DNA of 64,000 nt from the NCBI GenBank assembly GCA_032622095.1, contig CP136062.1:53211349-53275348 (forward strand), in the 5' to 3' direction. Both the position numbers and the translations under genes were made by a program. Of this stretch, positions 26,886 to 60,636 are shown piece after piece. The DNA is from Siphonodentalium dalli (taxonomy: Eukaryota; Mollusca; Scaphopoda; Gadilida; Siphonodentaliidae). The stretch's first letter is position 1. Every line of letters starts with the position of its first letter. Under the pieces are notes generated by a model. It was not told the DNA's origin and did not search any database. It saw only the letters and a list, made by a program, of their open reading frames with translations.

Positions 26886-26935
26886 CTGCAATAAAAAGAA
26901 TAAATATATTCCATGCATGTAGCTTTAATAATAAT

Positions 26936-33695: not shown

Positions 33696-33803
33696 AACAG
33701 ATATTGAAGTCTCTAGATGGTGTAAGTTTGTTAGGTTCTAGGGACGGAAAAAATGCTTGGAACATAATGAACTCAACCAAAATCGCAACCACAGAATGTT
33801 TGG

Positions 33804-33879
33804 GTTTGCTTGGAGTAAGTTCTTGGGGTCCCAGGTTGAATTATATTCCGGGGTCACCATCAACTTTCACTAAGCAATC
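33804..33879 (+). ncRNA. Diverged type-1 hairpin, left edge
   Basis: The 5' arm GCTTGGAGTAAGTTCTTGGG pairs in register with the 3' arm GGTCACCATCAACTTTCACT then AAGC. The outer stem (GCTTGG/CTAAGC) differs from array copies (ATTCAC/CTGAAT) on both sides, so pairing is kept by paired changes. Mismatch positions agree with the array copies. Confidence 0.5.
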
Positions 33880-34117
33880 TCGCAGACCAGCTTATTGATC
33901 TACACATAAATTTCAACGGTTGAGTGTAATTTTCAGTCGAAGCTAAAGTTAGTTTCTCCAGTCTGAAGTTGAAGATTTGAGTTCACTGATAATATTTTCC
34001 AGTTTAATGATAATTTGGTTTCATTGAATTAGTCGCTAGTCATCTTAGAATTTGTGGGAGAACTTGGCTTGTTCTTGAGTAAATTCCCCAGGTCCCGGGT
34101 GCGATTCCTTGGCTTGT

Positions 34118-34181
34118 TCTTGAGTAAGTTCCCCAAGTCCCGGGTGCGATTCAAAATCCCTGGACTTCAGGAACTATTCAC
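34118..34181 (+). ncRNA. Diverged type-1 hairpin, left edge, preceded by a 5'-arm duplicate
   Basis: AAGTTCCCCAAGTCCCGGG faces CCCTGGACTTCAGGAACT with only three interior mismatches. A duplicate of the 5' arm alone (gagtaaattccccaggtccc) sits just upstream at 34078-34098. Confidence 0.45.
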
Positions 34182-34284
34182 AGATGCAGCCAATCAAAAC
34201 AACTGTCAGCGTCAATGAAAACTGGGTTAAGTTTGAGAGAGGTATCACAGTATCACTGGTGATATATGCTCTGAAGATATCACT

Positions 34285-36160
34285 TGGTCTTATTCAATGT
34301 AAGTTTTTGGGGACCAAGGTGAAGTTAAAACCCAGGATTTCAGACGCTTTTTCTGAATGGGACCAAATATTGACAATTGTTCTTCTCATAATGTTTATTC
34401 AGTGACAAATGACGATGCCGGAAGTTGATCAAAACTCTTCTTTAATTCTGTTTTCTTTCCCAACTTGTGCAACCACTGTCAATGCTTAGTTTCCTCTCGC
34501 TCTATATTAGTGATTTTGGGACCTAACCCGGGAGGATTTGAAAGGGGCAGAGACCAGCTCTCCTACAAGTCACTATTTCCTCTTGCTGTATATTAGTGAT
34601 TTCGGGATCTAACCCAATCAGTGACATCTTTCAATGGTGGCTCGGTGTACTTTGCATGCATATTTGACTTGGTCTTATTCGCAGTAAGTTTCTGGGATCC
34701 CAGGTCAAGTTAAAACCCAGGACTTCAGTTACTTTTTCTGAATGGAACCAAATATCGACAATTGTTCTTCTTCAAAAAAAGTTATTTTTTTTGCGTTCTA
34801 CTTCAAAAATGTTTATTCTGCAAAAAAGGCAAAAGTGAGTTCTTTCTCATTTCTTTCTTTTACATCAGTATTTTATCAACGGTCATTGTGAACAGCATTT
34901 GGTTAAATGTTTGAGTGCAGATAATGCCAGATATAACTTGTTCTGATTCACAGTAAGTTTCTGGGTTCCCAGGTGAAATTAAAACCCAGGACTTGAGATA
35001 CTTTTTCTGAATGAGACCAAATATCAACAACAGTACTGTTCTCCTTCTGTGTTTATTTTCTAAAAAATGGCTGAGTATCTTCTTTCTCTTGGCTCTTTCA
35101 TTTTTTTTCACATCATGATTTTTTCAGATGTTCATCTTCAGCATCAGTGACAAGACTTTCAGAAGGACATCACTCATTACTAAATGGATTTCCCCATGAG
35201 TTGTTACTGTATACATTGGAATGGTAAATGGCCATCATTTGTTAAACTTATTACCTGAATGTTTACTAATGGAACTACTCGTCAATGAGTATTTAGTTAA
35301 ATGTTTTGTGCAGATTTCACTTGGTTTTATTCACAGTAAGTTTCTGTGTTCCCAGGTGAATTTTAAACCCAGGACTTCAGATACTTTTTCTGAATGGAAC
35401 CAAATATCAACAAATGGCCAAGGTGCGACGACTCTTCTCTCATTCTGTTTCGTTTTTCTATTTTTGTTTTGCTTTTGATGGATGCTCGTTGTCAGGGCGA
35501 TAAAATTCAGTGACAAACTGGATTAGTTGATCGAGACTCTTCTTTCATTCTGTTTTGTTTTGTTTTTATTTCTATCGTAGTCACTGTTTTGATGGATGTT
35601 CACTGTTTGTCTCAATGGCAGCTGGGTGAAAGTTTTAAAGTTTTGGTACTATTCTATGTAAGTTTCTGGGTTCCCAGGTGAATTTCAAACCCAGGACTTC
35701 AGATACTTTTTCTGAATGGGACCAAATATCATAAATCCTCTAATGTTTACGGATGTTTTTTGTCTCTGTGCTTTAGATGTGGTAATATTTTTAAATGGCA
35801 TTAAATTCAATGGTGTTTGGATAAAGGTTGGAGCATAGATATCACTTGGTTTTATTCAATGTAAGTTTCTGGGGTCCCAGGTGAATTTCAAACCCAGGAC
35901 TTCAGATACTTTTTCTGCATGGAACCAAATATCGACAAATGGCCAACGTGCGACGACTCTTTCATTCTGTTTTGTTTTGTTTTTTGTTTCTATTGAGTCA
36001 CTGTTTTGATGGATGTTCAGTTTGTCTCAATGACAGCTGGGTGAAAATTTGAAAGTTTGAGTTCAATCTTAACTTGGTCCTATTCGTAGTAAGTTTCTGG
36101 GTTCCCAGGTGAAGGTAAAACCCAGGACTTCAGATACTTTTTCTGCATGGGACCAAATAT
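34285..36160 (+). repeat. Array block 1: seven type-1 hairpins, irregular spacing
   Basis: Hairpins start near 34285, 34669, 34938, 35321, 35643, 35846 and 36074. Spacers are mostly unlike each other; the hairpin part is the conserved part. A piece of the piggyBac-like MITE family (gaactactcgtcaatgagta, 35272) lies between copies 3 and 4. Confidence 0.8.
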
Positions 36161-36258
36161 CGACGATTGTTCTCTCAAATTCATACTGGAAATGTTAATT
36201 TATATTTTGTGAGTTTTTTATTTGGAACAAATGGTTAAAGTTACTGTGAGGACTTCTC

Positions 36259-36341
36259 TTGGTCTTATTCAATGTAAGTTTCTGGGGTCCCAGGTGAATT
36301 TCAAACCCAGGACTTCAGGTGCTTTTTCTGAATAAGACCAA
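36259..36341 (+). ncRNA. Representative type-1 hairpin (83 nt)
   Basis: TTGGTCTTATTCAATG, GTAAGTTTCTGGGGTCC, loop, CCCAGGACTTCAGGTGC, TTTTTCTGAATAAGACCAA. Here the outer stem is fully Watson-Crick (TCTTATTC/GAATAAGA). Most other copies have GAATGGGA, giving two U:G pairs. Confidence 0.55.
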
Positions 36342-36615
36342 ATATCAACAGTGAAATTGCTCACTTGTGTCCATGGTGATTTGTGGTCATTGCAATATCT
36401 CAGGATTCCGATTCAGATGTTCGGAGTTGATTTGGATGTTGCTGCATTTCAATCTGTAGTTTCGTGGATTTCTGGGAAATTTACTGAAATATCTTGTGAC
36501 GACTTCAACAACAATAATAAGGATTACAGTTCAGTGTTAGATAGAAATGAGTGATTCCAGTGGATTTCTGGTAATGTTGGCAAACGATCTTGACTTCAAT
36601 AATGATTTGACACCT

Positions 36616-36697
36616 ACAGTTCAGTGATCGCGGACATTAAGGAATGTTGCTGTTAATTTATTAGTGGATTTCTTGAGATCCGTGATCACTGAACTGT
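36616..36697 (+). ncRNA. Type-2 hairpin, unit 1
   Basis: The 5' arm ACAGTTCAGTGATCGCGGA pairs with the 3' arm TCCGTGATCACTGAACTGT over 19 positions (one G:U). Then comes a 2-nt symmetric internal loop, then TTAAGGAAT/ATTTCTTGA (9 pairs), and a loop of about 22 nt. Proportions fit a pre-microRNA. Confidence 0.55.
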
Positions 36698-38062
36698 TTA
36701 ACGCTTCTATTCAGAGTCAATGGCAACTGGGTTAATTCAATAGTGTTTGGATAAAAGTTGGAGTGCAGGTATGACTTGGTCTTATACACAGTAAGTTTCT
36801 GTGTTCCCAGGTGAATTTCAAACCCAGGACTTCAGATACTTTTTCTGCATGGAACCAAATATCGACAAATGGCCAAGGTGCAATGACCCTTCTTTCATTA
36901 TGTTTTGTTTTTCTATTTATGGTTTGCTTTTGATGGATGCTCGTTGTCAGGGCGATAAAATTCAGTGACAAACTGGATTAATTGATCGAGGCCCTTCTTT
37001 CCATCTGTTTTGTTTTTATTTCTATCGGGTCACTGTTTTGATGGATGTTCACTGTTTGTTTCAATGGCAGCTGGGTGAAAGTTTTGGTCTTATTCAATGT
37101 AAGTTTCTTGGGTCCCAGGTGAAGTTAAAACCCAGGACTTCAGATACTTTTTCTGAATGGAACCAAATATCATCAATCCTCTAATGTTTATGGATGTTCA
37201 ATGTCACTGGGCATCACAGATAGTAATAGTTTTAAATGGCATTAAATTCAATGGTGTTTGGATAAAGGTTGGAGCATAGATATCACTTAGTTTTATTCGT
37301 AGTAAGTTTCTGTGTTCCCAGGTGAAATTAAAACCCAGGACTTCAGAAACTTTTGCTGCATGGGACCAAATATCAACAAATGGCCAACGTGTGACTCTTC
37401 TTTCATTCTGTTTTGTTTTGTTTTTTGTTTCTATTGAGTCACTGTTTTGATGGATGTTCACTGTTTGTCTCAATGACAGCTGGGTGAAAATTTGTTTGAG
37501 TTCAATCTTAACTTTGTCCTATTCGTAGTAAGTTTCTGGGTTCCCAGGTGAAGGTAAAACCCAGGACTTCAGATACTTTTTCTGCATGGGACCAAATATC
37601 GACGATTGTTCTCTCAAATTCATACTGGAAATGTTAATTTATATTTTGTGAGTTTTTTATTTGGAACAAATGGATAAAGTTACTGTGAGGACTTCTCTTG
37701 GTCTTATTCAAAGTAAGTTTCTGGGGTCCCAGGTGAATTTCAAACCCAGGACTTCTGATGCTTTTTCTGAATAAGACCAAATATCAACAGTGAAATTGCT
37801 CACTTGTTTCCATGGTGATTCATGGTCATGGACATTGCGATATCTCAGGATTCCGATTCAGATGTTTGGAGTTGATTTGGATGTTGCTGCATATAAATCT
37901 GTGGTTTGGTGGATTTCTTGGAAATTTACTGAAATATCTTGTGACGACTTCAACAACAATAATAATGACTATACTGTTCAGTGTTAGATAGAAATGAGTG
38001 ATTCCATTGGATTTATGGTAATGTTGCCAAACGATCTTGACTTCAATAATGATTTGACACCT

Positions 38063-38144
38063 ACAGTTCAGTGATCGCGGACATTAAGGAATGTTGCTGT
38101 TAATTTATTAGCGGATTTCTTGAGATCCGTGATCACTGAACTGT
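38063..38144 (+). ncRNA. Type-2 hairpin, unit 2
   Basis: Same stem as 36616-36697, with one loop change (gcggattt). Confidence 0.55.
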
Positions 38145-39488
38145 TTAACGCTTCTATTCAGAGTCAATGGCAACTGGGTTAATTCAATTGTGTTTAGATA
38201 AAAGTTGGAGTGCAGGTATGACTTGGTCTTATTCACAGTAAGTTTCTGTGTTCCCAGGTGAATTTCAAACCCAGGACTTCAGATACTTTTTCTGCATGGG
38301 ACCAAATATCAACAAATGGCCAACGTGTGACGACCCTTCTTTCATTATGTTTTGTTTTTCTATTTATGGTTTGCTTTTGATGGATGCTCGTTGTCAGGGC
38401 GATAAAATTCAGTGACAAACTGGATTAATTGATCGAGACCCTTCTTTCCTTCTGTTTTGTTTTTATTTCTATCGGGTCACTGTTTTGATGGATGTTCACT
38501 GTTTGTCTCAATGGCAGCTGGGTGAAAGTTTTGGTATTATTCAATGTAAGTTTCTTGGGTCCCAGGTGAAGTTAAAACCCAGGACTTCAGATACTTTTTC
38601 TGAATGGGACCAAATATCATCAATCCTCTAATGTTTATGGATGTTCAATGTCACTGGGCATCACAGATAGTAATAGTTTTAAATGGCATTAAATTCAATG
38701 GTGTTTGGATAAAGGTTGGAGCATAGATATCACTTAGTTTTATTCGTAGTAAGTTTCTGTGTTCCCAGGTGAAATTAAAACCCAGGACTTCAGAAACTTT
38801 TGCTGCATGGGACCAAATATCAACAAATGGCCAACGTGCGACGACTCTTTCATTCTGTTTTGTTTTGTTTTTTGTTTCTATTGAGTCACTGTTTTGATGG
38901 ATGTTCACTGTGTGAAAATTTGTTTGAGTTCAATCTTAACTTGGTCCTATTCATAGTAAGTTACTGGGGTCCCAGGTGAAATTAAAACCCAGGACTTCAG
39001 ATACTTTTTCTGCATGGGACCAAATATCGACGATTGTTCTCTCAAATTCATACTGGAAATGTTAATTTATATTTTGTGAGTTTTTTATTTGGAACAAATG
39101 GTTAAAGTTACTGTGAGGACTTCACTTGGTCTTATTCACAGTAAGTTTCTGGGGTCCCAGGTGAATTTAAAACCCAGGACTTCAGATACTTTTTCTGAAT
39201 AAGACCAATTATCAACAGTGAAAGTTTTCATTTGTTTCCATGGTGATTCGTGGTCATGGTCATTGTGATATCTCAGGATTCCGATTCAGATGTTCGGAGT
39301 TGATTTGGATGTTGCTGCATATCAATCTATGGTTTGGTGGATTTATGAGAAATTTACTGAAATATCTTCTGATGACTTCAACAACAATAATAAGGATTAC
39401 AGTTCAGTGTTAAATAGAAATGAGTGATTCCATTGGATTTCTGGTAATGTTGCCAAACGATCTTGACTTCAATAATGATTTGACACCT

Positions 39489-39570
39489 ACAGTTCAGTGA
39501 TCGCGGACATTAAGGAATGTTGCTGTTAATTTATTAGTGGATTTCTTGAGATCCGTGATCACTGAACTGT
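39489..39570 (+). ncRNA. Type-2 hairpin, unit 3
   Basis: Stem identical to 36616-36697. Confidence 0.55.
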
Positions 39571-40102
39571 TTAACGCTTCTATTCAGAGTCAATGGCAAC
39601 TGGGTTAATTCAATTGTGTTTAGATAAAAGTTGGAGTGCAGGTATGACTTGGTCTTATTCACAGTAAGTTTCTGTGTTCCCAGGTGAATTTCAAACCCAG
39701 GACTTCAGATACTTTTTCTGCATGGGGCCAAATATCGACAAATGGCCAAGGTGCAATGACCAATTCTTTCATTGTGTTTTGTTTTTCTATTTATGGTTTG
39801 CTTTTGATGGATGCTCGTTGTCAGGGCGATAAAATTCAGTGACAAACTGGATTAATTTATCGAGACCCTTCTTTCCTTCTGTTTTGTTTTTATTTATATC
39901 GGGTCACTGTTTTGATGGATGTTCACTGTTTGTCTCAATGGCAGCTGGGTGAAAGTTTTGGTATTATTCAATGTAAGTTTCTTGGGTCCCAGGTGAAGTT
40001 AAAACCCAGGACTTCAGATACTTTTTCTGAATGGGACCAAATATCATCAATCCTCTAATGTTTATGGATGTTCATTGTCACTGGGCATCACAGATAGTAA
40101 TA

Positions 40103-40152
40103 CCATTAATCAGTATGCCGACGACACTACACTCATCCTGGAGGTAAACGCA
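40103..40152 (+). pseudogene. 50-bp reverse-transcriptase fragment (YADD motif) patched into one repeat unit
   Basis: In unit 3 the spacer text 'gttttaaatggcatta' is replaced by about 50 bp that translates as INQYADDTTLILEVNA (frame 40105-40152). This is the catalytic YADD box of a non-LTR reverse transcriptase. It is absent from the six sister units. Confidence 0.75.
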
Positions 40153-40972
40153 GAATTCAATGGTGTTTGGATAAAGGTTGGAGCATAGATATCACTTAGT
40201 TTTATTCGTAGTAAGTTTCTGTGTTCCCAGGTGAAATTAAAACCCAGGACTTCAGAAACTTTTGCTGCATGGGACCAAATATCAACAAATGGCTAATGTG
40301 CGACGACTCTTTCATTCTGTTTTGTTTTGTTTTTTGTTTCTATTGAGTCACTGTTTTGATGGATGTTCACTGTTTGTCTCAATGACAGCTGGGTGAAAAT
40401 TTGTTTGAGTTCAATCTTAACTTGGTCCTATTCGTAGTAAGTTTCTGGGGTCCCAGGTGAAATTAAAACCCAGGACTTCAGATACTTTTTCTGCATGGGA
40501 CCAAATATCGACGATTGTTCTCTCAAATTCATACTGGAAATGTTAATTTATATTTTGTGAGTTTTTTATTTGGAACAAATGGTTAAAGTTACTGTGAAGA
40601 CTTCTCTTGGTCTTATTCACAGTAAGTTTCTGGGGTCCCAGGTGAATTTCAAACCCAGGACTTCTGATGCTTTTTCTGAATAAGACCAAATATCAACAGT
40701 GAAAGTTTTCATTTGTTTCCATGGTGATTCGTGGTCATGGTCATTGTGATATCTCAGGATTCCGATTCAGATGTTCGGAGTTGATTTGGATGTTGCTGCA
40801 TATCAATCTATGGTTTGGTGGATTTCTGAGAAATTTACTGAAATATCTTCTGATGACTTCAACAACAATAATAATAAGGACTACAGTTCAGTGTTAGATA
40901 GAAATGAGTGATTCCAATGGATTTCTGGTAATGTTGCCAAGCGATCTTGACTTCAATAATGACTTGACACCT

Positions 40973-41054
40973 ACAGTTCAGTGATCGCGGACATTAAGGA
41001 ATGTTGCTGTTAATTTATTAGTGGATTTCTTGAGATCCGTGATCGCTGAAATGT
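40973..41054 (+). ncRNA. Type-2 hairpin, unit 4, with 3'-arm changes
   Basis: The 3' arm reads GATCGCTGAAATGT: one change converts U:A to U:G (pairing kept on plus-strand RNA), another makes a single mismatch. Confidence 0.5.
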
Positions 41055-42411
41055 TTAACGCTTCTATTCAGAGTCAATGGCAACTGGGTTAATTAAATTG
41101 TGTTTAGATAAAAGTTGGAGTGCAGGTATGACTTGGTCTTATTCACTGTAAGTTTCTGTGTTCCCAGGTGAATTTCAAACCCAGGACTTCAGATACTTTT
41201 TCTGCATGGGACCAAATATCAACAAATGGCAAAGGTGCGATGACCATTCTTTCATTATGTTTTGTTTTTCTATTTATGGTTTGCTTTTGATGGATGCTCG
41301 TTGTCAGGGCGATAAAATTCAGTGACAAACTGGATTAATTGATCGAGACCCTTCTTTCCTTCTGTTTTCTTTTTATTTCTATCGGGTCACTGTTTTGATG
41401 GATGTTCACTGTTTGTCTCAATGGCAGCTGGGTGAAAGTTTTGGTATTATTCACTGTAAGTTTCTTGGGTCCCAGGTGAAGTTAAAACCCAGGACTTCAG
41501 ATACTTTTTCTGAATGGGACCAAATATCATCAATCCTCTAATGTTTATGGATGTTCAATGTCACTGGGCATCACAGATAGTAATAGTTTTAAATAGCATT
41601 AAATTCAATGGTGTTTGGATAAAGGTTGGAGCATAGATATCACTTAGTTTTATTCGTAGTAAGTTTCTGTGTTCCCAGGTGAAATTAAAACCCAGGACTT
41701 CAGAAACTTTTGCTGCATGGGACCAAATATCAACAAATGGCCAACGTGTGACTCTTCTTTCATTCTGTTTTGTTTTGTTTTTTGTTTCTATTGAGTCACT
41801 GTTTTGATGGATGTTCACTGTTTGTCTCAATGACAGCTGGGTGAAAATTTGTTTGAGTTCAATCTTAACTTGGTCCAATTCGTAGTAAGTTTCTGGGTTC
41901 CCACGTGAAGTTAAAACCCAGGACTTCAGATACTTTTTCTGTATGGGACCAAATATCGACGATTGTTTTCTCAAATTCATACTGGAAATGTTAATTTATA
42001 TTTTGTGAGTTTTTTATTTGGAACAAATGGTTAAAGTTACTGTGAGGACTTCACTTGGTCTTATTCAAAGTAAGTTTCTGGGGTCCCAGGTGAATTTAAA
42101 ACCCAGGACTTCTGATGCTTTTTCTGAATAAGACCAAATATCAACAGTGAAATTGCTCACTTGTTTCCATGGTGATTCATGGACATTGCGATATCTCAGG
42201 ATTCTGATTCAGATGTTCGGAGTTGATTTGGATGTTGCTGCATATCAATCTATGGTTTGGTGAATTTCTGAGAAATTTACTGAAATATCTTCCGATGACT
42301 TCAACAACAATAATAAGGATTACAGTTCAGTGTTAGATAGAAATGAGTGATTCCATTGGATTTCTGGTAATGTTGGCAAACGATCTTGACTTCAATAATG
42401 ATTTGACACCT

Positions 42412-42493
42412 ACAGTTCAGTGATCGCGGACATTAAGGAATGTTGCTGTTAATTTATTAGTGGATTTCTTGAGATCCGTGATCACTGAACTGT
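42412..42493 (+). ncRNA. Type-2 hairpin, unit 5
   Basis: Stem as in 36616-36697. Confidence 0.55.
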
Positions 42494-44371
42494 TTAACGC
42501 TTCTATTCAGAGTCAATGGTAACTTGTTTAATTCAATTGTGTTTAGATAAAAGTTGGAGTGCAGGTATGACTTGGTCTTATTCACAGTAAGTTTCTGTGT
42601 TCCCAGGTGAATTTAAAACCCAGGACTTCAGATACTTTTTCTGCATGGGACCAAATATCAACAAATGGCCAAGGTGCAATGACCAATTCTTTCATTGTGT
42701 TTTGTTTTTCTATTTATGGTTTGCTTTTGATGGATGCTCGTTGTCAGGGCGATAAAATTCAGTGACAAACTGGATTAATTGATCGAGACCCTTCTTTCCT
42801 TCTGTTTTGTTTTTATTTCTATCAGGTCACTGTTTTGAGGAATGTTCACTGTTTGTCTCAATGGCAGCTGGGTGAAAGTTTCGGTCTTATTCGCTGTAAG
42901 TTTCTTAGGTCCCAGGTGAATTTAAAACCCAGGACTTCAGATACTTTTTCTGAATGGGACCAAATATCATCAATCCTCTAATGTTTATTGATGTTTATTG
43001 TCTCTGTGCATTACAGGTGGTAATAGTTTTAAATGGAATTAAATTCAATGGTGTTTGGATAAATGTTGGAGCGTAGATATCACTTGGTCCTATTCGTTGT
43101 AAGTTTCTGGGTTCCCAGGTGAATTTCAAACCCAGGACTTCAGATACTTTTTCTGCATGGAACCAAATATCGACAAATGGCCAAGGTGCAATGACCCTTC
43201 TTTCATTATGTTTTGTTTTTCTATTTATGGTTTGCTTTTGATGGATGCTCGTTGTCAGGGCGATAAAATTCAGGGACAAACTGGATTAATTTATCGAGAC
43301 CCTTCTTTCCTTCTGTTTTGTTTTTATTTATATCGGGTCACTGTTTTGATGGATGTTCACTGTTTGTCTCAATGGCAGCTGGGTGAAAGTTTTGGTATTA
43401 TTCAATGTAAGTTTCTTGGGTCCCAGGTGAAGTTAAAACCCAGGACTTCAGATACTTTTTCTGAATGGGACCAAATATCATCAATCCTCTAATGTTTATG
43501 GATGTTCATTGTCACTGGGCATCACAGATAGTAATAGTTTTAAATAGCATTAAATTCAATGGTGTTTGGATAAAGGTTGGAGCATAGATATCACTTAGTT
43601 TTATTCGTAGTAAGTTTCTGTGTTCCCAGGTGAAATTAAAACCCAGGACTTCAGAAACTTTTGCTGCATGGGACCAAATATCAACAAATGGCCAATGTGC
43701 GACGACTCTTTCATTCTGTTTTGTTTTGTTTTTTGTTTCTATTGAGTCACTGTTTTGATGGATGTTCACTGTTTGTCTCAATGACAGCTGGGTGAAAATT
43801 TGTTTGAGTTCAATCTTAACTTGGTCCTATTCGTAGTAAGTTTCTGGGGTCCCAGGTGAAATTAAAACCCAGGACTTCAGATACTTTTTCTGCATGGGAC
43901 CAAATATCGACGATTGTTCTCTCAAATTCATACTGGAAATGTTAATTTATATTTTGTGAGTTTTTTATTTGGAACAAATGGTTAAAGTTACTGTGAAGAC
44001 TTCTCTTGGTCTTATTCACAGTAAGTTTCTGGGGTCCCAGGTGAATTTCAAACCCAGGACTTCTGATGCTTTTTCTGAATAAGACCAAATATCAACAGTG
44101 AAAGTTTTCATTTGTTTCCATGGTGATTCGTGGTCATGGTCATTGTGATATATCAGGATTCCGATTCAGATGTTCGGAGTTGATTTGGATGTTGCTGCAT
44201 ATCAATCTATGGTTTGGTGGATTTCTGAGAAATTTACTGAAATATCTTCTGATGACTTCAACAACAATAATAATAAGGACTACAGTTCAGTGTTAGATAG
44301 AAATGAGTGATTCCAATGGATTTCTGGTAATGTTGCCAAACGATCTTGACTTCAATAATGACTTGACACCT

Positions 44372-44453
44372 ACAGTTCAGTGATCGCGGACATTAAGGAA
44401 TGTTGCTGTTAATTTATTAGTGGATTTCTTGAGATCCGTGATCGCTGAAATGT
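44372..44453 (+). ncRNA. Type-2 hairpin, unit 6
   Basis: Carries the same 3'-arm changes as 40973-41054, showing that units 4 and 6 share recent ancestry. Confidence 0.5.
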
Positions 44454-45816: not shown

Positions 45817-45898
45817 ACAGTTCAGTGATCGCGGACATTAAGGAATGTTGCTGTTAATTTATTAGTGGATTTCTTGAGATCCGTGATCACTGAACTGT
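45817..45898 (+). ncRNA. Type-2 hairpin, unit 7
   Basis: Stem as in 36616-36697. Confidence 0.55.
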
Positions 45899-49930: not shown

Positions 49931-50980
49931 ATCATTCAACATTATTGTTTTTGTGGATCTTCACTGATAGTACCTGGTAACTGGCTATACTTTTGAAAAA
50001 GACATCAATGGTGAATGGTTAGTATAGATTTCACTTTGTCTTATTCATTGTAAGTTTCTGGGGTCCCAGGTGAACTTTGAACCCAGGACTTTAGATGCTT
50101 TTTCTAAATGGGACCAAATATCAACAATTGTTGTTCTCAACAATGTTAAGCCAAAAAGAATGACAATGGTGAAGATCTACTTTTATTCAGTTTAGTTTTC
50201 ATATTTCTGTAACATAATTGCTTTCTATGGATATTGGTTGTCAATGATTTAATTGTAAAATATTGACAGAACATGCTATGGTGGCTGGTTTGAATAAAGA
50301 CTCAACTTGGTCTTATTCAATGTAAGTTTCTGGGGTCCCAGGCGAACTTTGAACCCAGGACTTCAGATGCTTTTACTGAATGACACCAAATATCAACAAT
50401 TGTTCTTCACAAACATGTTCAGCCAAAAGAAAGACAATGATGAAACTCTTCTTTCATTCCGTTTTCTTTTTCTGTTTCTGTTGACCTACTTTTTATGGAT
50501 ACTCATCAGCGCCATTGTCAGGAGGATAAAAGTCTGAAGAGGCATCGTTCAATTGTGGCTGAGTAAAATTTGATTAAAGATATCACTTGGTCTTATTTGC
50601 AGTAAGTTTCTGTGTTCCCAGGTGAAATTAAAACCCAGGACATCAGATACTTTTTCTGAATGGGACCAAATATCGACGATTGTTTTGTCGGATCATACTG
50701 GAATGTTAATTTACATTGTGTGTTGTTTATTTGGAACAAATTGAAATGTTAAAACTCTTATCACACTGAGTTCTTTGTTTCCTCTACATCATCATTTTTT
50801 TTTTCAAAGCAATTTTTGGTTCCCAAGTGATTTCAAACTTGGGTCTTCAAATGTGTTTTTCTGCATTGGAAGAAACATCAGCGTTGGTGCTCGTGGACAT
50901 TAAGGAATGTTGCCAAACATCAACGTTAGTGATAACAGATGTTGCCAAAAGATCTGGACTTCAATAATGATTCGACACCT

Positions 50981-51062
50981 ACGGTTCAGTGATCGCGGAC
51001 TTTAAGGAATGTCGCTGTTAATTTTTTAGTGGATTTCTTGTTATCCGTGATTACTGAACTGT
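50981..51062 (+). ncRNA. Type-2 hairpin, block 4
   Basis: ACGGTTCAGTGATCGCGGAC faces TTATCCGTGATTACTGAACT then GT. The 5' A to G change gives a G:U pair. Confidence 0.5.
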
Positions 51063-51961
51063 TTATCACTTCTATTCAGCATTAACCTTCAATGGGTTAA
51101 AATTTGCTTGAAGATTTCACTTGGTCTTATTCGCAGTAAGATTAGTCATTAAAGAATGGCAATGTTGAGACTCTTCTTTCAGTCAGTTCTTTTTTTCTTT
51201 TAAACCATTGATGTTTATGGATGTTCACTGTTAGTGTCCACATTAATGGAAGCTGGATAAAAAGTTTAAAGAGACATATGGCAATGAAAACTCTGAGTGA
51301 ATACATCACTTGGTCTTATTCGCAGTAAGTTTCTGGGGTCCCAGGTCAAGTTAAAACCCAGGACTTCAGATGCTTTTTCTGAATGGGACCAAATATCAAC
51401 AATTTTCTTTGCAAAAATGTTCATTCACTAAAAATGGCAATTCTGAAACCACTGCTTTCTACTGCTATTGGCTATCCTAGTTTAAATGGTAGCTACGTAA
51501 AATATTAAGAGAATCATGCTATGGTGGCTGGTTTGAATGAAGGCTCAACTTGGTCTTATTCAATGTAAGTTTCTGGGGTCCCAGGTGAACTTTGAACCCA
51601 GGACTTCAGATGCTTTTTCTGAATGGAACCAATCATCAACAATTGTTCTTCACAAACATGTTCAGCCAAAAAGAACGACAACATTGAAACTCTTCTTTCA
51701 TTCTGTTTTGTTTTTCTGTTTCTGTTGAATTTTTTTCTTTTATGGATGGTCATTGTCAGCGGCAATATCAGGAGGATAAAAGCCTGGAGAGGCATTGTTC
51801 AATTGTGGCTAAGTAAAATTTTATTAAAGATTTCACTTGATCTTATTCACAGTAAGTTTCTGTGTTCCCAGGTGAAATTAAAACCCAGGACTTCAGATAC
51901 TTTTTCTAATGGGACCAAATATCGATCATTCTTTTCCTAGAACTGTTTATTTACTGATAAT

Positions 51962-52090
51962 GGCAATGATTAATTTCATCTTTCTATCAATGATTAGTTT
52001 CATCTTTCTATCAATGATTAATTTCATCTTTCTATCAATGAATAGTTTCATCTTTCTAGCAATGATTAGTTTCATCTGTCTATCAATTCT
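51962..52090. repeat. 24-bp minisatellite, about 5 copies
   Basis: Short version of the array at 49655-49930. Confidence 0.88.
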
Positions 52091-53461
52091 TTCTTCAATC
52101 AACATCATTGTTTTTATGGATCTTCACTGATAGTACCTGGTAACTGGCTATACTTTTGAAAAAGACATCAATGGTGAATGGTTAAAAGTCTTAGTATAGA
52201 TTTCACTTTGTCTTATTCATTGTAAGTTTCTGGGGTCCCAGGTGAACTTTGAACCCAGGACTTTAGATGCTTTTTCTAAATGGGACCAAATATCAACAAT
52301 TGTTGTTCTCAACAATGTTAAGCCAAAAGGAATGACAATGGTGAAGCTCTACTTTTATTCAGTTTAGTTTTCATATCTCTTTAACATAATTGCTTTCTAT
52401 GGATATTGGTTGTCAATGATTTAGTTGTAAAATATTGACAGAACATGCCATGGTGGTTGGTTTGAATAAAGACTCAACTTGGTCTTATTCAATGTAAGTT
52501 TCTGGGGTCCCAGGTGAACTATGAACCCAGGACTTCAGATGCTTTTACTGAATGACACCAAATATCAACAATTGTTCTTCACAAACATGTTCAGCCAAAA
52601 GAAAGACAATGATGAAACTCTTCTTTCATTCCGTTTTGTTTTTCTGTTTCTGTTGACCTACTTCTTTTTATGGATACTCATCAGCGCCAATGTCAGGAGG
52701 ATAAAAGTCTGGAGAGGCATCGTTCAATTGTGGCTGAGTAAAATTTGATTAAAGATATCACTTGGTCTTATTTGCAGTAAGTTTCTGTGTTCCCAGGTGA
52801 AATTAAAACCCAGGACATCAGATACTTTTTCTGAATGGGACAAAATATCAACGATTCCTCTTCTCAAAAATTGGTTATCAGTGTCAATGAATTGGTTTTA
52901 ACATATCGCTGCTTATTTCTCTGGATGTTGATTATCAGTGTCAATGATTTGGTTGTAAGATCACTGTTTTCTATGGATACTGGTTGTCAATGATTTAGTT
53001 GTAAAATATTGACAGAACATGCTATGGTGGCTGGTTTGAATAAAGACTCAACTTGGTCTTATTCAATGTAAGTTTCTGGGGTCCCAGGTGAACTATGAAC
53101 CCAGGACTTTAGATGCTTTTTCTGAATGGGACCAATCATCAACAATTGTTGTTCACAACAATGTTCAGCCAATAAGAAAGACAATGGTGAAACTCTTCTT
53201 TCATTCCGTTTTGTTTTTTCTGTTTCTGTTGAATTTTGTCCTTTTATGGATGGTCATTGTCAGCGGCAATATCAGGAGGATAAAAGTCTGGAGAGGCATT
53301 GTTCAGTTGTGGCTAAGTAAAATTTGATTAAAGATTTCACTTGATCTTATTCACAGTAAGTTTCTGTGTTCCCAGGTGAAATTAAAACCCAGGACTTCAG
53401 TTACTTTTTCTGAATGGGACCAAATATCGATCATTCTTTTCCTAGAACTGTTTATTTACTG

Positions 53462-53735
53462 ATAATGGCAATGATTAGTTTCATCTTTCTATCAATGATT
53501 AGTTTCATCTTTCTATCAATGATTAGTTTCATCTTTCTATCAATGATTAGTTTCATCTTTCTATCAATGATTAGTTTCATCTTTCTATCAATGATTAGTT
53601 TCATCTTTCTATCAATGATTAGTTTCATCTTTCTATCAATGATTAGTTTCATCTTTCGATCAATGAATAGTTTTATCTTTCTATCAATGATTAGTTTCAT
53701 CTTTCTATCAATGATTAGTTTCATCTGTCTATCAA
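53462..53735. repeat. 24-bp minisatellite, about 11 copies
   Basis: Same unit, including the distinctive 'tttcgatcaatgaatagttt' variant also found in 49655-49930, so the two arrays share a recent common source. Confidence 0.92.
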
Positions 53736-55097
53736 TTCTTTCATCATTCAACATCATTGTTTTTATGGATCTTCACTGATAGTACCTGGTAACTGGCTAT
53801 ACTTTTGAAAAAGACATCAATGGTGAATGGTTAAAAGTCTTAGTATAGATTTCACTTTGTCTTATTCATTGTAAGTTTCTGGGGTCCCAGGTGAACTTTG
53901 AACCCAGGACTTTAGATGCTTTTTCTAAATGGGACAAATATCAACATGTTTAAGCCAAAAAGAATGACAATGGTGAAGCTCTACTTTTATTCAGTTTAGT
54001 TTTCATATTTCTGTAACATAATTGCTTTCTATGGATATTGGTTGTCAATGATTTAGTTGTAAAATATTGACAGAACATGCCATGGTGGTTGATTTGAATA
54101 AAAACTCAACTTGGTCTTATTCAATGTAAGTTTCTGGGGTCCCAGGTGAACTTTGAACCCAGGACTTTAGATGCTTTTACTGAATGACACCAAATATCAA
54201 CAATTGTTCTTCACAAACATGTTCAGCCAAAAGAAAGACAATGATGAAACTCTTCTTTCATTCCGTTTTTGTTTTTCTGTTTCTGTTGACCTACTTCTTT
54301 TTATGGATACTCAACAGCGCCAATGTCAGGAGGATAAAAGTCTGGAGAGGAATTGTTCAATTGTGGCTGAGTAAAATTTGATTGAAGATATCACTTGGTC
54401 TTATTTGCAGTAAGTTTCTGTGTTCCCAGGTGAAATTAAAACCCAGGACATCAGATACTTTTTCTGAATGGGACAAAATATCAACGATTCCTCTTCTCAA
54501 AAATTGGTTATCAGTGTCAATGAATTGGTTTTAACATATCGCTGCTTATTTCTATGGATGTTGATTATCAGTGTCAATGATTTGGTTGTAAGATCACTGT
54601 TTTCTATGGATACTGGTTGTCAATGATTTAGTTGTAAAATATTGACAGAACATGCTATGGTGGTTGGTTTGAATAAAGACTCAACTTGGTCTTATTCAAT
54701 GTAAGTTTCTTGGGTCCCAGGTGAACTTTGAACCCAGGACTTCAGATGCTTTTACTGAATGGGACCAAATATCAACAATTGTTGTTCTCAACAATGTTCA
54801 GCCAATAAGAAAGACAATGGTGAAACTCTTCTTTCATTCCGTTTTGTTTTTTCTGTTTCTGTTGAATTTTGTCCTTTTATGGATGGTCATTGTCAGCGGC
54901 AATATCAGGAGGATAAAAGTCTGGAGAGGCATCGTTCAATTGTGGCTAAGTAAAATTTGATTAAAGATTTCACTTGGTCTTATTCGCTGTAAGTTTCTGT
55001 GTTCCCAGGTGAAATTAAAACCCAGGACTTCAGATACTTTTTCTGAATGGGACCAAATATCGATCATTCTTTTCCTAGAACTGTTTATTTACTGAAA

Positions 55098-55180
55098 ATG
55101 GCAATGATTAATTTCATCTTTCTATCAATGATTAATTTCATCTTTCTATCAATGATTAGTTTCATCTTTCTATCAATTCT
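55098..55180. repeat. 24-bp minisatellite, about 3 copies
   Basis: Shortest sister of 49655-49930. Confidence 0.85.
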
Positions 55181-56014
55181 TTCTTCATTCCACATCATTG
55201 TTCTTATGGATCTTCACTGATAGTAGCTGGTAAGTGTCTATACTGATAGTACCTGGTAAGTGTCTAGACTTTTGAACCAGACATCAATGGTGAATGGTTA
55301 GTCTTCGTGTAGATTTCACTTGGTCTTATTCAATGTAAGTTTCTGGGGTCCCAGGTGAACTTTGAACCCAGGACTTTAGATGCTTTTTCTGAATGGAACC
55401 AATCATCAACAATTGTTCTTCACAAACATATTCAGCCAAAAAGAACGACAACAGTGAAACTCTTGTTTCATTCCGTTTAGTTTTCGTATTTCTGTATTTC
55501 GTATCACTGCTTTCTATGCATATTGTTTTTCAATGATTTAATTGTAAAATATTGACAGAACATGCTATGGTGGCTGGTTTGAATAAAGACTCAACTTGGT
55601 ATTATTCAATGTAAGTTTCTGGGGTCCCAGGTGAACTTTGAACCCAGGACTGCAGATGCTTATTCTGAATGTGATCAAAAATCAACAATTGTTCTTCACA
55701 AATATGTTCAGCCCAAAAGAAAGACAATAGTGAAACTCTTCTTTCATTCCGTTTTCTTTTTCTGTTTCTGTTGACCTACTTCTTTTTATGGATACTCATC
55801 AGCACCAATATCAGGAGGATAAAAGTCTGGAGAGGCATCGTTCAATTGTGGCTAAGTAAAATTTGATTGAATATTTCACTTGGTCTTATTTGCAGTAAGT
55901 TTCTGTATTCTCAGGTGAAATTAAAACCCACGACTTCAGATACTTTTCTGAATGGGACCATATAACGATTCCTCTTCTCAAAAAATGGTTATCAGTGTCA
56001 ATGGATTGGTTTTA

Positions 56015-56530
56015 ACATCGCTGCTTTCTATGGATATTGGTTATCAGTGTCAATGATTTGGTTGTAACATCACTGTTTGCTATGGATATTGGTTATCAGT
56101 GTCAATGATTTGGTTGTAACATCACTGTTTTCTATGGATATTGGTTATCAGTATCAATGATTTGGTTGTAACATCACTGTTTTCTTTGGATATTGGTTAT
56201 CAGTGTCGATGAATTGGTTGTAACATATCACTGCTTTCTATGGACATTGGTTATCAGTGTCGATGAATTGGTTGCAACATATCGCTGCTTTCTATGGATA
56301 TTGGTTATCAGTGTCGATGAATTGGTTGTAACATATCACTGCTTTCTATGGATATTGGTTATCAGTGTCAATGAATTGGTTGTAACATCACTGTTTTCTA
56401 TGGATATTGGTTATCAGTGTCAATGAATTGGTTGTAACATCACTGCTTTCTATGGATATTGGTTATCAGTGTCAATGAATTGGTTGAAACATCACTGTTT
56501 TCTATGGATATTGGTTGTCAATGATTTAGT
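56015..56530. repeat. ~52/54-bp minisatellite, about nine copies
   Basis: Unit 'tttctatggatattggttat', 'cagtgtcaatgaattggttg', 'taacatcactgc', with a 2-bp 'at' variant (acatatcac). Shorter runs of the same unit lie in spacers at 52870-53010 and 54490-54640. Confidence 0.9.
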
Positions 56531-56583
56531 TGTAAAATATTGACAGAACATGCTATGGTGGTTGGTTTGAATAAAGACTCAAC

Positions 56584-59175
56584 CTGGTCTTATTCAATGT
56601 AAGTTTCTGGGGTCCCAGGTGAACTTTGAACCCAGGACTTCAAATGCTTTTTCTGAATGGGACCAATTATCAACAATTGTTCTTCACAAACATGTTCAGC
56701 AAATAAGAAAGACAATGGTGAAACTCTTCTTTCATTCCGTTTTGTTTTTCTAATTCTCTTGAAATCAGTTTCTTGATAGATGCTCGTTGTCAGCACCAAT
56801 TTTAGAAGGATGAAATATGGAGAGGCATTGTTCATTGATAGCCGAGTAAAATATGGAGTGCAAACTTCAGTTCTTATTCACTGTAAGTTTCTTGGGTCCC
56901 AGGTGAATTTCAAACCCAGGACTTCAGATACTTTTTCTGAATGGGACCAAATATCGACGATTGCTCTAATTTTTAGGAAAGTTCAGTGTCACTGTGCATT
57001 ACAGTTGGTATTATTTTGAGATGACATTAAGTTCAATGGTGTTTGGATAAAGGTTGCAGTGCAAATATGACTTGATCTTATTCAATGTAAGTTTCTGGGT
57101 TCCCAGGTGAAACTAAAACACAGGAATTCAAGATACTTTTTTCTGAATGGGACCAAATATCGACAAATGTTCTTCTCATAAATGTTTATTTGCTAAAAAT
57201 TATCAATGTTTAGACTCGATCTTCTTCCACTCAGTTCTCTCTGTCTTTTAAATCACTGGTTTTTAATAATGATGGTCAGTGTCGGTTTCAATGGCAGCTG
57301 GGTAGATGTTTGGACAGGCATCGTTCAATGGTGGCTGAGTAAAATTTGGAGAGTAGAATTCACTTGGTCATATTCATTGTAAGTTTCTGGGGTCCCAGGT
57401 CAAGATCGAACCCAGGACTTCAGATGCTTTTTCTGAATGGGACCAAATATCAACAACTGTTTTTTATAAAAACATTGATTTGCAAAAAATGTCAATCTTC
57501 CAATATTTCTGTCTTTTTAATCGCTGGTTTTTAATAATGATGGTCAGTGTCGGTTTCAATGGCAGCTGGGTTGATGTTTGGAGAGGCATTGTTCAATGCA
57601 TTGGTGACTGGTTATAAATGACATAGTGTAGACTTCACTTGGTCTTATTCAATGTAAGTTTCTTGGGTCCCAGGTGAACTTTGAACCCAGGACTTCAAAT
57701 GCTTTTTCTGAATGGGACCAAATATCAACAACTCTTTTTATAAAACATTGATTTGCAAAAAATGTCAATCTTTGTCCAATACTTCTGTCTTTTAAATCAC
57801 TGTCTTTTACTGAATGGTGATTGTTAGTTTCAATGGCAGCTGTGTAGATGTTTGGACAGGCACCGTTCCATGGTGGCTGAGTAAAATTTTGAGTGTAGAC
57901 TTCACTTGGTCTTATTTGTAGTAAGTTTCTGGGGTCCCGGGTCCAATAAAAATGCAGACATTCAGATGCTTTTTCTGCATGGACCAAACATCAAAATTTC
58001 TTCATCTAAAAATGATTATTTGGTAACAAACTGATGATTCTTTCAGTCAGTTCTTTCTTTCAAATCATTGCTTTTTTATGGCTGGTCATTGACAGCGTTA
58101 ATGGCAAGAGGATACATCTGTGATAGACTTTACTTGGTCTTATGCAAAGGGGTCCCAGGTCAAGTAAAAACCCAGGACGTCAAAAGCTTTTCATGCATGG
58201 GACCGAACAGCAATGTTTCTTCATCTATAAATGTTTATTCAGAACATATTAACGATATTTATTCGGTAAAAATGGCAATCATGAGAGTCTTATTTCATTC
58301 AGTTCTTTCTTTCCATTGGTAAATTGTGATTGCAGACATCACTTGGTTTTATTCAAAGTAAGTTTCTGGGGTCCCAGGTGAAGTTAAACCCAGGACTTCA
58401 GATGCTTTTTTTCTGCATGGGACAGGAAATGTCGGGCAGGAAATGTTTGAGATGTTTATATGCAGATTATAATTTTTGTATGGCTGTTCAATGTCAGTTT
58501 CAATAGCAGGTGCATAAAATCATTTAAGAAATTCATTGGTGGCTAGTTAAAGATTGTGTGCAGACTTCACTTGGTTTTATTCACTAAGTTTCTGTGTTCC
58601 CAGGTGAATTTCAAACCCAGGACTTCAGATACTTTTTCTGAATAAGACCGAATATCAACAGTGAAAGTTTTCATTTGTTTCCATGGTGATTCGTGGTCAT
58701 GGTCATTGTGATATCTCAGGATTTCGATTCAGATGCTTGGAGTTGATTTGGATGTTGATGCATATAAATCTATGGTTTGGTGGATTTCTTGGAAATTGAT
58801 TGAAATATCTTGTGATGAATTAAACAATAATAATGACCACAGTTCAGTGTAAAATGGAAATCAACGATTTCATTGGATTTCGGGTAATGTTTCCAAAAGA
58901 TCTTAATTCAACAATCGATTTGACACCTACAGTTCAGTGATCGCGGACATTAAGGGATGTCGCTGTTAATTTATTAGTGGATTTCTTGAGATCCGTGATC
59001 ACTGAACTGTTTAACGCTTCTATTCAGTGTCAATGGCAACTGGGTTAATTCAATTGTGTTTAGATAAAAGTTGGAGTGCAGGTATGACTTGGTTTTATTC
59101 AATGTAAGTTTCTGGGTTCCCAGGTGAAACTAAAACCCAGGAATTCAGATACTTTTCTGCATAAGACCAAATATC
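56584..59175 (+). repeat. Array block 5: right side, diverging hairpins
   Basis: Type-1 near 56584, 56868, 57072, 57364, 57639, 57906, 58343, 58570 and 59089, plus a degenerate copy at about 58130. The spacer after 58570 returns to the block-2 type (ttcatttgtttccatggtga), so block 2 sequence flanks block 4 on both sides. Confidence 0.8.
58929..59010 (+). ncRNA. Type-2 hairpin, block 5
   Basis: ACAGTTCAGTGATCGCGGAC with the TCCGTGATCACTGAACTGT arm, as in block 2. Confidence 0.55.
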
Positions 59176-59299
59176 GACGATTGTTCTCTAGGATTCAGAC
59201 TGTAACATCATAAGTTTTATTGCATTTATTCAAAGCAATTTATGGTTCCCAGGTGAATTTCAAACTTGGGTCTTAAAAGTTTTTTTCTGCATTGGACCA

Positions 59300-59475
59300 A
59301 ACATGAACATCAGTGATCGCGGATATTAAGGAATGTCACTGTTAATTTATATGTCAGTGATCGCGGATATTAAGGAATGTCAGCAAACATCAATGTTAGG
59401 GATCGCAGATATTAAGGAATGTCGCTGTTAGTTTATTACTGGTTTTCTTGAGAACCGTGATCATAGAACTGTTTA
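59300..59475 (+). repeat. Tripled type-2 5' arm with a single 3' arm
   Basis: 'cagtgatcgcggatattaag' occurs at about 59311 and 59354 and as 'agggatcgcagatattaagg' at about 59398. Only the last is followed by a loop and 3' arm (gagaaccgtgatcatagaac). Confidence 0.65.
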
Positions 59476-59710
59476 ACACGTTTTGTTAGTTTAATATATT
59501 CTGTTGAGTTCATTACACTTGAGTTCAGTTGACAATTTCTACTGTAAACATGCATTGATGAGAAGTTCCCTGAGGAAATGTTGAGATAAAAAGTTCAACA
59601 AACGACATCAGAACATTCCACCAATGAATATGAATAATTCTGCTCTTAAAGTAACTGTTGTTCTGTCTGTCTGTCTTCTGCAATTGTCAAGATACTTTAA
59701 AAGTAAAAAT

Positions 59711-59786
59711 TCCATTGAGTGTAGTAAGTTTCTGAGATCCCAGGGGCCGTAACTCTCTGGGAGTTCTTTAACTTTTACCATTCATG
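59711..59786 (+). ncRNA. Diverged type-1 hairpin, right edge
   Basis: AGTAAGTTTCTGAGATCCCAG is followed by a loop and CTGGGAGTTCTTTAACTTTT. CCCAG/CTGGG and AAGTTT-type segments still pair. The 5' arm is the best-conserved part. Confidence 0.4.
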
Positions 59787-60126
59787 GTTTGAACTACAAT
59801 ACAGTTTTTATCATATCGCGTACAAACATAAGTGCATGAAGCTCAGTTATGTTTATGTAACACTTTTGTCGTTTATGTTATCCGTTCTTGGCGAGCAGGT
59901 CAGTTGTGAATATATTATATGGCATTTGTGTAGAGTCAGTTTCCAGTGGGCAAATACAGTAGAAACTTCGTCTAGAACGTGTTCAATTTTTCATTATTCT
60001 TGGTAAGCAGTTGTATATATGAGGTGCTGGTGTTTATCGTTTTGTTATTGTTGTTGTCGCTAAGTCGCTTAGTCCTTTGAAGTCTTGTATTTAAGTTTTT
60101 ACGGTGGAAACATATTCTCCAAGTTC

Positions 60127-60204
60127 ACCATTGAGTGTAGTAAGTTTCTGAGGTCCCAGGGGCCGTAACTCTCGGGGATTTCATTAACTATTGCCATTCA
60201 TTGG
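60127..60204 (+). ncRNA. Diverged type-1 hairpin, right edge, second copy
   Basis: AGTAAGTTTCTGAGGTCCCAG then CGGGGATTTCATTAACT. The flanks 'ttgagtgtagtaagtttctg' and 'ggggccgtaactct' are shared with 59711-59786. Confidence 0.4.
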
Positions 60205-60565
60205 TTACATCAACAATATGGAGAAGTTAAAAACAATTCTCCATTGGAATCTAGAAACAGTTAAATTATCTTATCTGCTGTTTTGCTCCATTTTCATGCT
60301 GGTATTCCATTTATTTAGTCATTTTAGTTACCTTCGTTGCTCGGCAACCATTTTTGCATCTGTTTAATCCATTCTGATTGTGACATTTCTTCATGACTCC
60401 TGTTGGTTCACTGTTCAGTTAACAAATTTTTGAGCTCCTAAATCTTTGGGTTCCTATTGGTGAAATATAGTTCCCAGTTGACAGATTGTATCTATTTCGA
60501 TATCTTAAAAGTATCTGTGGGTGTAGATCTGATCTCCATGGAGACAGTGAATTAGAAGCACAATC

Positions 60566-60636
60566 CCGTGGTCGCAGATCTTGAGAAATACCGCTGTTAG
60601 TTTTGGAAGTGGATTTCTCATGATCCGTGATTACTG
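60566..60636 (+). ncRNA. Diverged type-2 hairpin, right edge (71 nt)
   Basis: GGTCGCAGATCTTGAGAAAT pairs with ATTTCTCATGATCCGTGATT at 18 of 20 positions without a gap. The inner stem differs from array copies on both arms, yet pairing is improved rather than lost. Confidence 0.5.

Follow-up and report, generated by a model that had tools for sequence, protein, structure and literature searches.

What are the nature and the probable role of a long run of similar hairpins that lies inside an intron of CDK10 in the scaphopod mollusc Siphonodentalium dalli? The question is raised by a 64,000-nucleotide stretch of contig CP136062.1 (GenBank assembly GCA_032622095.1, positions 53,211,349 to 53,275,348 of the forward strand), here called the window, whose own numbering is used throughout unless another locus is named. 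An initial annotation, made from the letters of this stretch, had described a tandem cluster of microRNA-like hairpins antisense to the gene. The answer that we consider very probable is that these hairpins form a microRNA cluster, enormously amplified and built from two families known in molluscs, MIR-1990 and MIR-1986, a cluster which would have been duplicated from a cluster of the type found on contig 7 of the same genome, and which would be transcribed antisense to CDK10, processed, and employed in dosage.

Extent and geometry of the array

The 5′ arm given in the initial annotation is matched in the window, with up to three mismatches, 81 times on the + strand and 0 times on the - strand, at 33814-60139. 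When four mismatches are allowed, 83 copies are obtained, of which 73 are exactly 83 nucleotides (nt) long with the 3′ arm in register, in good agreement with the annotated figure of about 80 copies of an 83-nt hairpin. The six copies measured there (36259, 36776, 37084, 37287, 37513 and 37698) were re-measured, and all six have this length. The spacing was correctly described as variable, but its range was too narrow: consecutive MIR-1990 copies are separated by 102-640 nt instead of 120-430. A stem of about 36 positions with about five mismatches had been proposed, which is close to what is found, since a stem model of 29 pairs contains standard pairs in 1950 of 2117 cells (29 x 73 copies). 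The 73 in-register hairpins fold at -30.0 kcal/mol on average, whereas 400 windows sampled from the spacers average -13.9. The majority-base frequency reaches 0.996 in the 5p seed and 0.93 across the 5p segment; it is 0.957 across the 3p segment and 0.89 within the loop, and drops to 0.55 and 0.58 in the two 40-nt flanks. Chance hairpins were rejected on the grounds of arm conservation, the 83-nt register and the folding energies relative to the spacer.

A covariance model built from 32 copies gives 171 matches at expectation values (E) up to 1, 91 of them on the + strand; 90 of these 91 have E of at most 0.01 and fall within 33.8-60.2 kb, while the - strand matches coincide with these hairpins, the arms of which are almost palindromic. 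No further copies were found within 10 kb to the left or 20 kb to the right of the window on contig 2, by a scan with the mature pattern and with models built from the array. In total, the array contains 84 MIR-1990 copies retaining the mature segment (82 with an intact seed), six additional MIR-1990 remnants without seed, and 14 MIR-1986 copies plus one fragment. The array announced at 33804..60636 is therefore real, although it also holds a second family, which had not been named: 14 hairpins of MIR-1986 lie among those of MIR-1990, the latter come to an end at about 60.2 kb, and a MIR-1986 hairpin follows up to 60643. Its components are the following:

33798..60643, + strand: whole array of MIR-1990-type and MIR-1986-type hairpins, with all mature segments on this strand
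34284..59170, + strand: core array with 80 copies of MIR-1990, of which 73 measure exactly 83 nt and are in register; the 5p occupies hairpin nt 15-36 and the predicted 3p nt 50-71
33800..33893, + strand: diverged MIR-1990 paralogue, mature at 33814; 5p AGTAAGTTCTTGGGGTCCCAGG (20/22), 37.4 bits, E 1.9e-6
34109..34202, + strand: diverged MIR-1990 paralogue, mature at 34123; 5p AGTAAGTTCCCCAAGTCCCGGG, 28.5 bits, E 3.1e-4
59709..59799, + strand: diverged MIR-1990 paralogue, mature at 59723; 23.6 bits, E 0.0052
60125..60216, + strand: diverged MIR-1990 paralogue, mature at 60139; 30.6 bits, E 9.4e-5
36615..36698, + strand: representative MIR-1986 hairpin, 3p mature at 36665-36686
Starts at 38062, 39488, 40972, 42411, 44371, 45816, 47315, 47699, 48673, 50980, 58928 and 59390, + strand: further MIR-1986 hairpins
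60559..60643, + strand: diverged MIR-1986 paralogue; 3p TGGATTTCTCATGATCCGTGAT (20/22), 73.0 bits
59304..59373, + strand: MIR-1986 fragment; 26.1 bits, E 9.5e-5
47231..47321, + strand: decayed MIR-1990 copy without seed
Starts at 47615, 48487, 50794, 58134 and 59220, + strand: other decayed, seedless MIR-1990 copies

The 3′ arm of the 33814 paralogue differs from that of the array yet is paired, and the 34123 paralogue has an extra copy of its 5′ arm directly upstream (tandem pair 34063-34152).

Relationship to miR-1990 and miR-1986

The families were recognized by comparing the window with 60 mature mollusc microRNAs taken from the table of PMC7328434, which according to its text comprises 89; those left out were mostly star strands and near-duplicates. 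Both miR-1990-5p and miR-1986-3p reach 20/22 identical positions. One hundred permutations of the window were scanned with these two and with seven runners-up. None of the permutations attains 20/22 for either microRNA (permutation maxima 17 and 18), whereas the next best, miR-137, has 17/22 and is equalled by 16 of the 100, and the seven re-tested runners-up are equalled by 16-65 each. Among the candidates rejected, miR-193, miR-216b and miR-7 gave one match above a control of five shuffles, but 18, 20 and 65 of the 100 permutations, respectively, reach them. Of the 60 mollusc microRNAs tested, only miR-1990 and miR-1986 stand clear of shuffled controls. A third family in the spacers was not found among these 60 mature sequences, the best 14 of which were inspected. 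A fold scan of the + strand in 90-nt windows detected four further hairpins inside the array, at -25 to -31 kcal/mol.

The reference bgl-miR-1990-5p (aguaaguugauggggucccagg) is a sequenced 22-mer small RNA of the snail Biomphalaria glabrata, and bgl-miR-1986-3p is likewise a sequenced small RNA of Biomphalaria, as reported in PMC7328434. The 5′ arm, whose sequence the initial annotation could not match to any known one, thus corresponds to miR-1990-5p. The array 5p reads AGTAAGTTTCTGGGGTCCCAGG and differs from bgl-miR-1990-5p at nt 9-10, with 20/22 in the best copies; the predicted mature 5′ ends in the array are AGUAAGUUUC... / UGUAAGUUUC... and CAGGACUUC... Against the miR-1990 22-mer AGUAAGUUGAUGGGGUCCCAGG, 83 array copies score 16-20/22, and the 34123 copy, which is below 16/22, keeps the seed and the 3′ part. 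The seed GUAAGUU (5p nt 2-8) is present in 82 of the 84 mature-bearing MIR-1990 copies, being absent at 44854 and 58583, and in array and edge copies alike the 5p sits in the 5′ arm of a pre-microRNA-type hairpin. The commonest array 3p, CAGGACTTCAGATACTTTTTCT (33/73), keeps the register of the known 3p CGGGACUACGUCAACU and its letters only in part.

For miR-1986-3p, 14 matches of at least 16/22 are found on the + strand at 36665-60610, all of them within the array. Compared with UGGAUUUCCCAAGAUCCGUGAU they have 17-20/22, they lie within hairpins, and the seed GGAUUUC is intact in 13 of the 14; equally, 13 of the 14 hairpins fold at -35.4 to -47.6 kcal/mol. A model built from the array MIR-1986 recovers 14 full matches and one fragment on the + strand below E 0.001. 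On the - strand, the only matches of at least 16/22 (miR-1990, 17/22 at 33848; miR-1986, 16/22 at 60571) fall on opposite arms of + strand hairpins. On homology, the array is a mixed MIR-1990/MIR-1986 cluster.

The start of the miR-1990 seed, GUAAGU, is also the consensus 5′ splice site. With these letters at mature nt 2-7 of the MIR-1990 copies, a + strand primary transcript would carry more than 80 donor-like sites, which might affect splicing or U1 binding.

The canonical cluster on contig 7

The source genome has 2,226,750,531 bases in 9 contigs. It was searched with a 20-nt core allowing up to two mismatches, a procedure in which the counts of repeats are lower bounds. At least 81 core matches exist, 80 of them inside the CDK10 array and one on contig 7, while a reversed control pattern gave 0; the genome-wide dispersal of the hairpin, which the initial annotation had named as evidence against microRNA genes, was therefore not observed. 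The match on contig 7 has the letters of canonical miR-1990-5p. At this locus (L009), miR-1990-5p is found exactly (22/22) at 4915, miR-1986-3p at 21/22 at 7926 and a second miR-1990-5p at 21/22 at 9029. The three hairpins share one strand and span 4.2 kb in the order MIR-1990, MIR-1986, MIR-1990. The 3′ arm of the second MIR-1990 (C7b; the first is C7a) contains CGGGACTACGTCAACT, which is identical to the 16-nt bgl-miR-1990-3p as listed in PMC7328434; the same 16 letters occur in a primer given for miR-1990c-3p of Pinctada (PMC6627748).

Models made from the array only rank the three contig 7 hairpins best in 79,901 bases (MIR-1990, E 2.5e-6 and 4.3e-6; MIR-1986, E 6.9e-6). No additional MIR-1990 appeared within 20 kb on either side of the locus with the mature-pattern scan and the model. 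The CDK10 array is most likely a duplicate of a cluster of this type, probably grown by tandem amplification, and the direction of duplication from contig 7 to CDK10 is suggested because the former carries the canonical sequence. The sequence AGTAAGTTNNTGGGGTCCCAGG gave 0 exact-pattern matches in a viral contig set and in a set of genome contigs, which thus yielded no relatives in the DNA of other species. Two miR-1986-like sequences near the cluster, L009:9402-9423 (18/22, folding at -38.1 kcal/mol) and L010:166 on the - strand (19/22, weak fold), were missed by the model and were not counted.

Growth of the array and conservation of its hairpins

Part of the array is organized in larger repeats:

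36259..46804, + strand: seven head-to-tail higher-order units of 1351-1951 bp, 94-99% identical

Every unit contains one MIR-1986, together with 5, 5, 5, 5, 7, 5 and 4 whole MIR-1990 copies, respectively, and minisatellites of 24 and 52 bp are present in some spacers. In columns present in at least six of the seven units, 11 of 220 are variable in the mature arms versus 93 of 925 in the spacer (Fisher p = 0.018, related copies being treated as independent). The pairwise substitution rates among units are 0.021 for 5p, 0.0135 for 3p, 0.040 for spacer, 0.043 for loop and 0.058 for lower stem.

Seven deep MIR-1990 paralogues were also compared: the two of contig 7, the four edge copies (33814, 34123, 59723 and 60139) and one array copy. 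Averaged over pairs, identity is complete (1.00) in the seed, falls to 0.48 at nt 9-14 and rises to 0.93 at nt 15-22; the 5′ lower stem has 0.37, and the sequence further upstream 0.25, which equals chance. Edge-copy stems stay paired, with both partners changed with respect to the array at 4, 9 and 10 pairs and, in the 34123 copy, at 8.

The motif CNNC, situated 16-18 nt 3′ of the Drosha cut, is a Drosha-related motif. Of the 73 array MIR-1990 hairpins, 67 carry it 16-18 nt beyond the predicted end of 3p (66 at 17 nt, one at 16 nt), and 13 of the 14 array MIR-1986 have it 17-18 nt past the 3p end. With 3p ends inferred from folds and a chance expectation of about 8% per copy, it is also present in five of six deep MIR-1990 paralogues with unrelated flanks (C7a, C7b, 33814, 59723 and 60139, of which 59723 and 60139 are sisters), as well as in the contig 7 MIR-1986.

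The host gene and other repeats of the window

The location of the array in a CDK10 intron and antisense to the gene, as initially annotated, is borne out by two exon matches on the - strand which bracket it:

61524..61592, - strand: CDK10 coding exon upstream of the array-bearing intron (bounds of the protein match)
26812..26892, - strand: the coding exon of CDK10 that follows (limits of the protein match)

The coding-exon matches run in order on the - strand, from 61592-61524 to 26892-26812, 19417 and onward to about 4 kb. Since the first two are successive, the array lies inside one intron of about 34.6 kb, in antisense orientation. The exon at 61524-61592 is 74% identical to human CDK10. 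For the joined protein, the best named matches, among the best 120 of 889, are from molluscs (Haliotis asinina 85%, Liolophura 84%, Sinanodonta 84%), and in a tree of 19 proteins it falls among 10 mollusc rows, a grouping that lacks strong support and does not discriminate between mollusc classes. A search of solved structures returned a CDK-type kinase, with CDK11B ranked first. A possible relic of the neighbouring CDK10 exon lies some 0.5 kb from it, at 61062-61024 on the - strand; it matches weakly (E 0.67) and contains a stop in frame (QKLNHVGEGT*GI).

Other repeats occur in the window. Palindromes resembling miniature inverted-repeat transposable elements (MITEs), AGAATGAGGTCCCCAGAGGGTGAATTTAGTGATGC..., are located outside the array at 7761, 8051, 19496, 19801, 20581, 20881, 61746 and 61986. 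A second palindrome family, GGCTTGTTGCCATTCATCGGAAAGCTCTC..., is found at 13681, 17241, 22526, 28731, 33541 and 60861, the last two copies sitting just beyond both array ends, at 33.5 and 60.9 kb; a third, CCAATGCATTCTCTTATATATGCGAG... and variants, at 3451, 3686, 6896, 7036 and 15221. Tandem repeats of about 164 bp, with the unit AGTAAAATCCAAGATGGCTGCTGGCGGCCATG..., occupy 11600-12871 and 29043-30762.

Proposed explanation and its alternatives

The microRNA-cluster reading of the initial annotation gains support from the two-family homology, the conservation of the mature arms, covariation, CNNC, confinement and the contig 7 cluster. The sequence, structure, homology, copy number and confinement of the hairpins, and the mature-type conservation of their arms, are direct observations, and the case that they would be microRNA genes by descent is strong. 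According to the proposed sequence of events, an ancestral MIR-1990/MIR-1986/MIR-1990 cluster of 4.2 kb, which persists on contig 7, would have been duplicated into the CDK10 intron, where the MIR-1990 unit may have been copied singly and later as higher-order units of about 1.45 kb carrying MIR-1986 along. Transcribed from the + strand and thus antisense to CDK10, a primary transcript would supply about 80 MIR-1990 and about 13 MIR-1986 hairpins for cutting by Drosha and Dicer. The expected products are many miR-1990-5p with the seed GUAAGUU unchanged, a 3p with a partly altered seed, and miR-1986-3p with the seed GGAUUUC. The 5p seed is unchanged, nt 9-10 being outside it, and the array should accordingly act on the targets of miR-1990, but at a far higher dose. 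The likely purpose would be dosage, with two seeds delivered rapidly and in plenty to a restricted tissue or stage.

The gonad is one lead in this sense. As stated in PMC8945268, which cites another study, miR-1990 and miR-1986 are both male-biased in the gonads of Crassostrea hongkongensis, a joint bias which fits a shared transcript. On the other hand, miR-1990-3p is described as mantle-specific in C. gigas (PMC4138081) and miR-1990c-3p as high in Pinctada mantle (PMC6627748), so that these indirect leads disagree. A bolder version, which is possible but which we regard as doubtful, would make the array a mollusc counterpart of mir-430/427, amplified independently in an invertebrate: an old two-family cluster copied into the intron of a cell-cycle kinase, whose roughly 80 + 13 genes with intact seeds would flood the germline or early embryo with two seeds, possibly as the result of a conflict about sex or transmission, and whose altered 3p would meanwhile explore a new seed.

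Several observations weigh against the proposed explanation. No array copy is identical to canonical miR-1990-5p (20/22 at best), and the array 3p deviates from the known miR-1990-3p at seed positions, its predicted nt 2-8 being AGGACUU versus GGGACUA, a partly new seed. At 59440, the MIR-1986 copy has a weak fold (-16.6 kcal/mol); the seed is missing from six MIR-1990 copies, and no CNNC occurs in the tested interval of the 34123 paralogue. Rfam gives 0 matches above the gathering score in the window; it also gives 0 at the canonical contig 7 locus, so neither place is recognized by an Rfam model. Double changes inside the array amount to only 5 of 2117 pair cells, and the array copies are recent relatives, hence their uniform length and within-array CNNC are largely inherited and not independently selected. 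The MIR-1986 hairpin is only marginally slower than the spacer (3 of 84 variable columns, p = 0.052) and the lower stem is not slower (18 of 130, p = 0.22); the selection tests count related copies as independent, and the effect is modest. Finally, we infer transcription, processing, the role in dosage and the tissue from the DNA sequence alone.

An alternative is that the array is mostly dead, a tandem satellite in which microRNA genes happen to lie; unequal crossing-over would have amplified it, and hardly any of its copies, or none, would be expressed. The higher-order units, the minisatellites within the spacers, the six decayed copies and the small difference in rate between arms and spacer are all compatible with it. 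Against this stand the 82 intact seeds among 84 mature-bearing copies, the majority-base frequencies of 0.996 (5p seed) and 0.957 (3p) versus 0.55-0.58 in the flanks, and the deep paralogues at both array edges, which retain seed and pairing; we judge this alternative unlikely. A protein-coding origin is also thought unlikely, as stop-to-stop open reading frames reach only 144 amino acids and cross hairpins and spacers, no protein-library search of those frames having been made.

The position antisense to CDK10 and the repetitive nature of the array could suggest instead a source of small interfering RNAs from hairpin RNA (hpRNA) or of PIWI-interacting RNAs (piRNAs), or an antisense regulator of CDK10. 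Such roles seem quite improbable for hairpins that are short, fold singly, match two known families in fixed registers and carry CNNC, and for which a canonical MIR-1990/MIR-1986 pair exists on another contig. As for a dispersed family of MITEs or of short interspersed elements, it would account for the hairpin shape, and MITE-like palindromes do exist elsewhere in the window, outside the array. This origin was rejected, and is hardly credible, on account of genome confinement: in 2.23 Gb, 80 of at least 81 core matches are in one array and the one outside is canonical MIR-1990. Moreover, the stem is imperfect, and it matches a known mature microRNA closely and in the proper register.

Comparison with known systems

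The closest relatives are the members of MIR-1990 (bgl/hru/cte-miR-1990) and MIR-1986 (bgl/hru-miR-1986), with which the array shares the seeds GUAAGUU and GGAUUUC, the mature register, the arm (5p and 3p, respectively) and the hairpin form. It differs from them at miR-1990-5p nt 9-10 and in parts of the 3p. It also differs in number, since the available text of the mollusc papers gives one or few copies and mentions no large array, compared with 84 and 14 here. No report of such a mollusc array was found in the open-access literature, most subscription papers being outside the search.

To our knowledge, mega-amplified microRNA clusters are known mainly from vertebrates. There they clear maternal RNA or act in the placenta (described in part in PMC10569791). 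In the same source, X. tropicalis is credited with 171 copies of mir-427, X. laevis with 33 over 55 kb, and zebrafish with more than 2000 precursors of mir-430 (PMC10569791); in fish, cichlids excluded, the mir-430 repeat subunits are reported to contain 1-4 hairpins per 251-1443 bp (PMC10417697). The likeness to mir-430/427 consists in the tandem amplification of one seed. The seeds, however, are unrelated and those systems are vertebrate, whereas the array described here has two families, is intronic and uses a single strand. Human C19MC is likewise a large tandem cluster, made of other families. Its members are more diverse. It comprises 46 miRNAs over about 100 kb (PMC10404189). The mouse cluster in intron 10 of Sfmbt2, with 65 miRNA genes in 55-65 kb, is described as having grown in two phases, starting with a short unit and arriving at head-to-tail units of 2.5 kb (PMC3212979), and it resembles the present array in being intronic and in this two-phase growth to head-to-tail units. 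According to the same account, the Sfmbt2 cluster grew from B1 retroposons and CA/TG repeats, unlike the array in CDK10, which would derive from an older microRNA cluster and is antisense to its host gene.

The array, then, resembles the mir-430/427 and Sfmbt2 clusters in layout and is not categorically new, and its members belong by homology to MIR-1990 and MIR-1986. If the proposed explanation is correct, it provides an independent mollusc case with an unamplified cluster of the same families in the same genome, in which the steps could be dated and a dose-amplified seed compared with its low-copy parent. It would also bear on whether very high copy numbers of microRNA genes are a general solution to a single need. 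The linkage of MIR-1990 and MIR-1986 in this species may, in addition, explain the male bias of both in one oyster.

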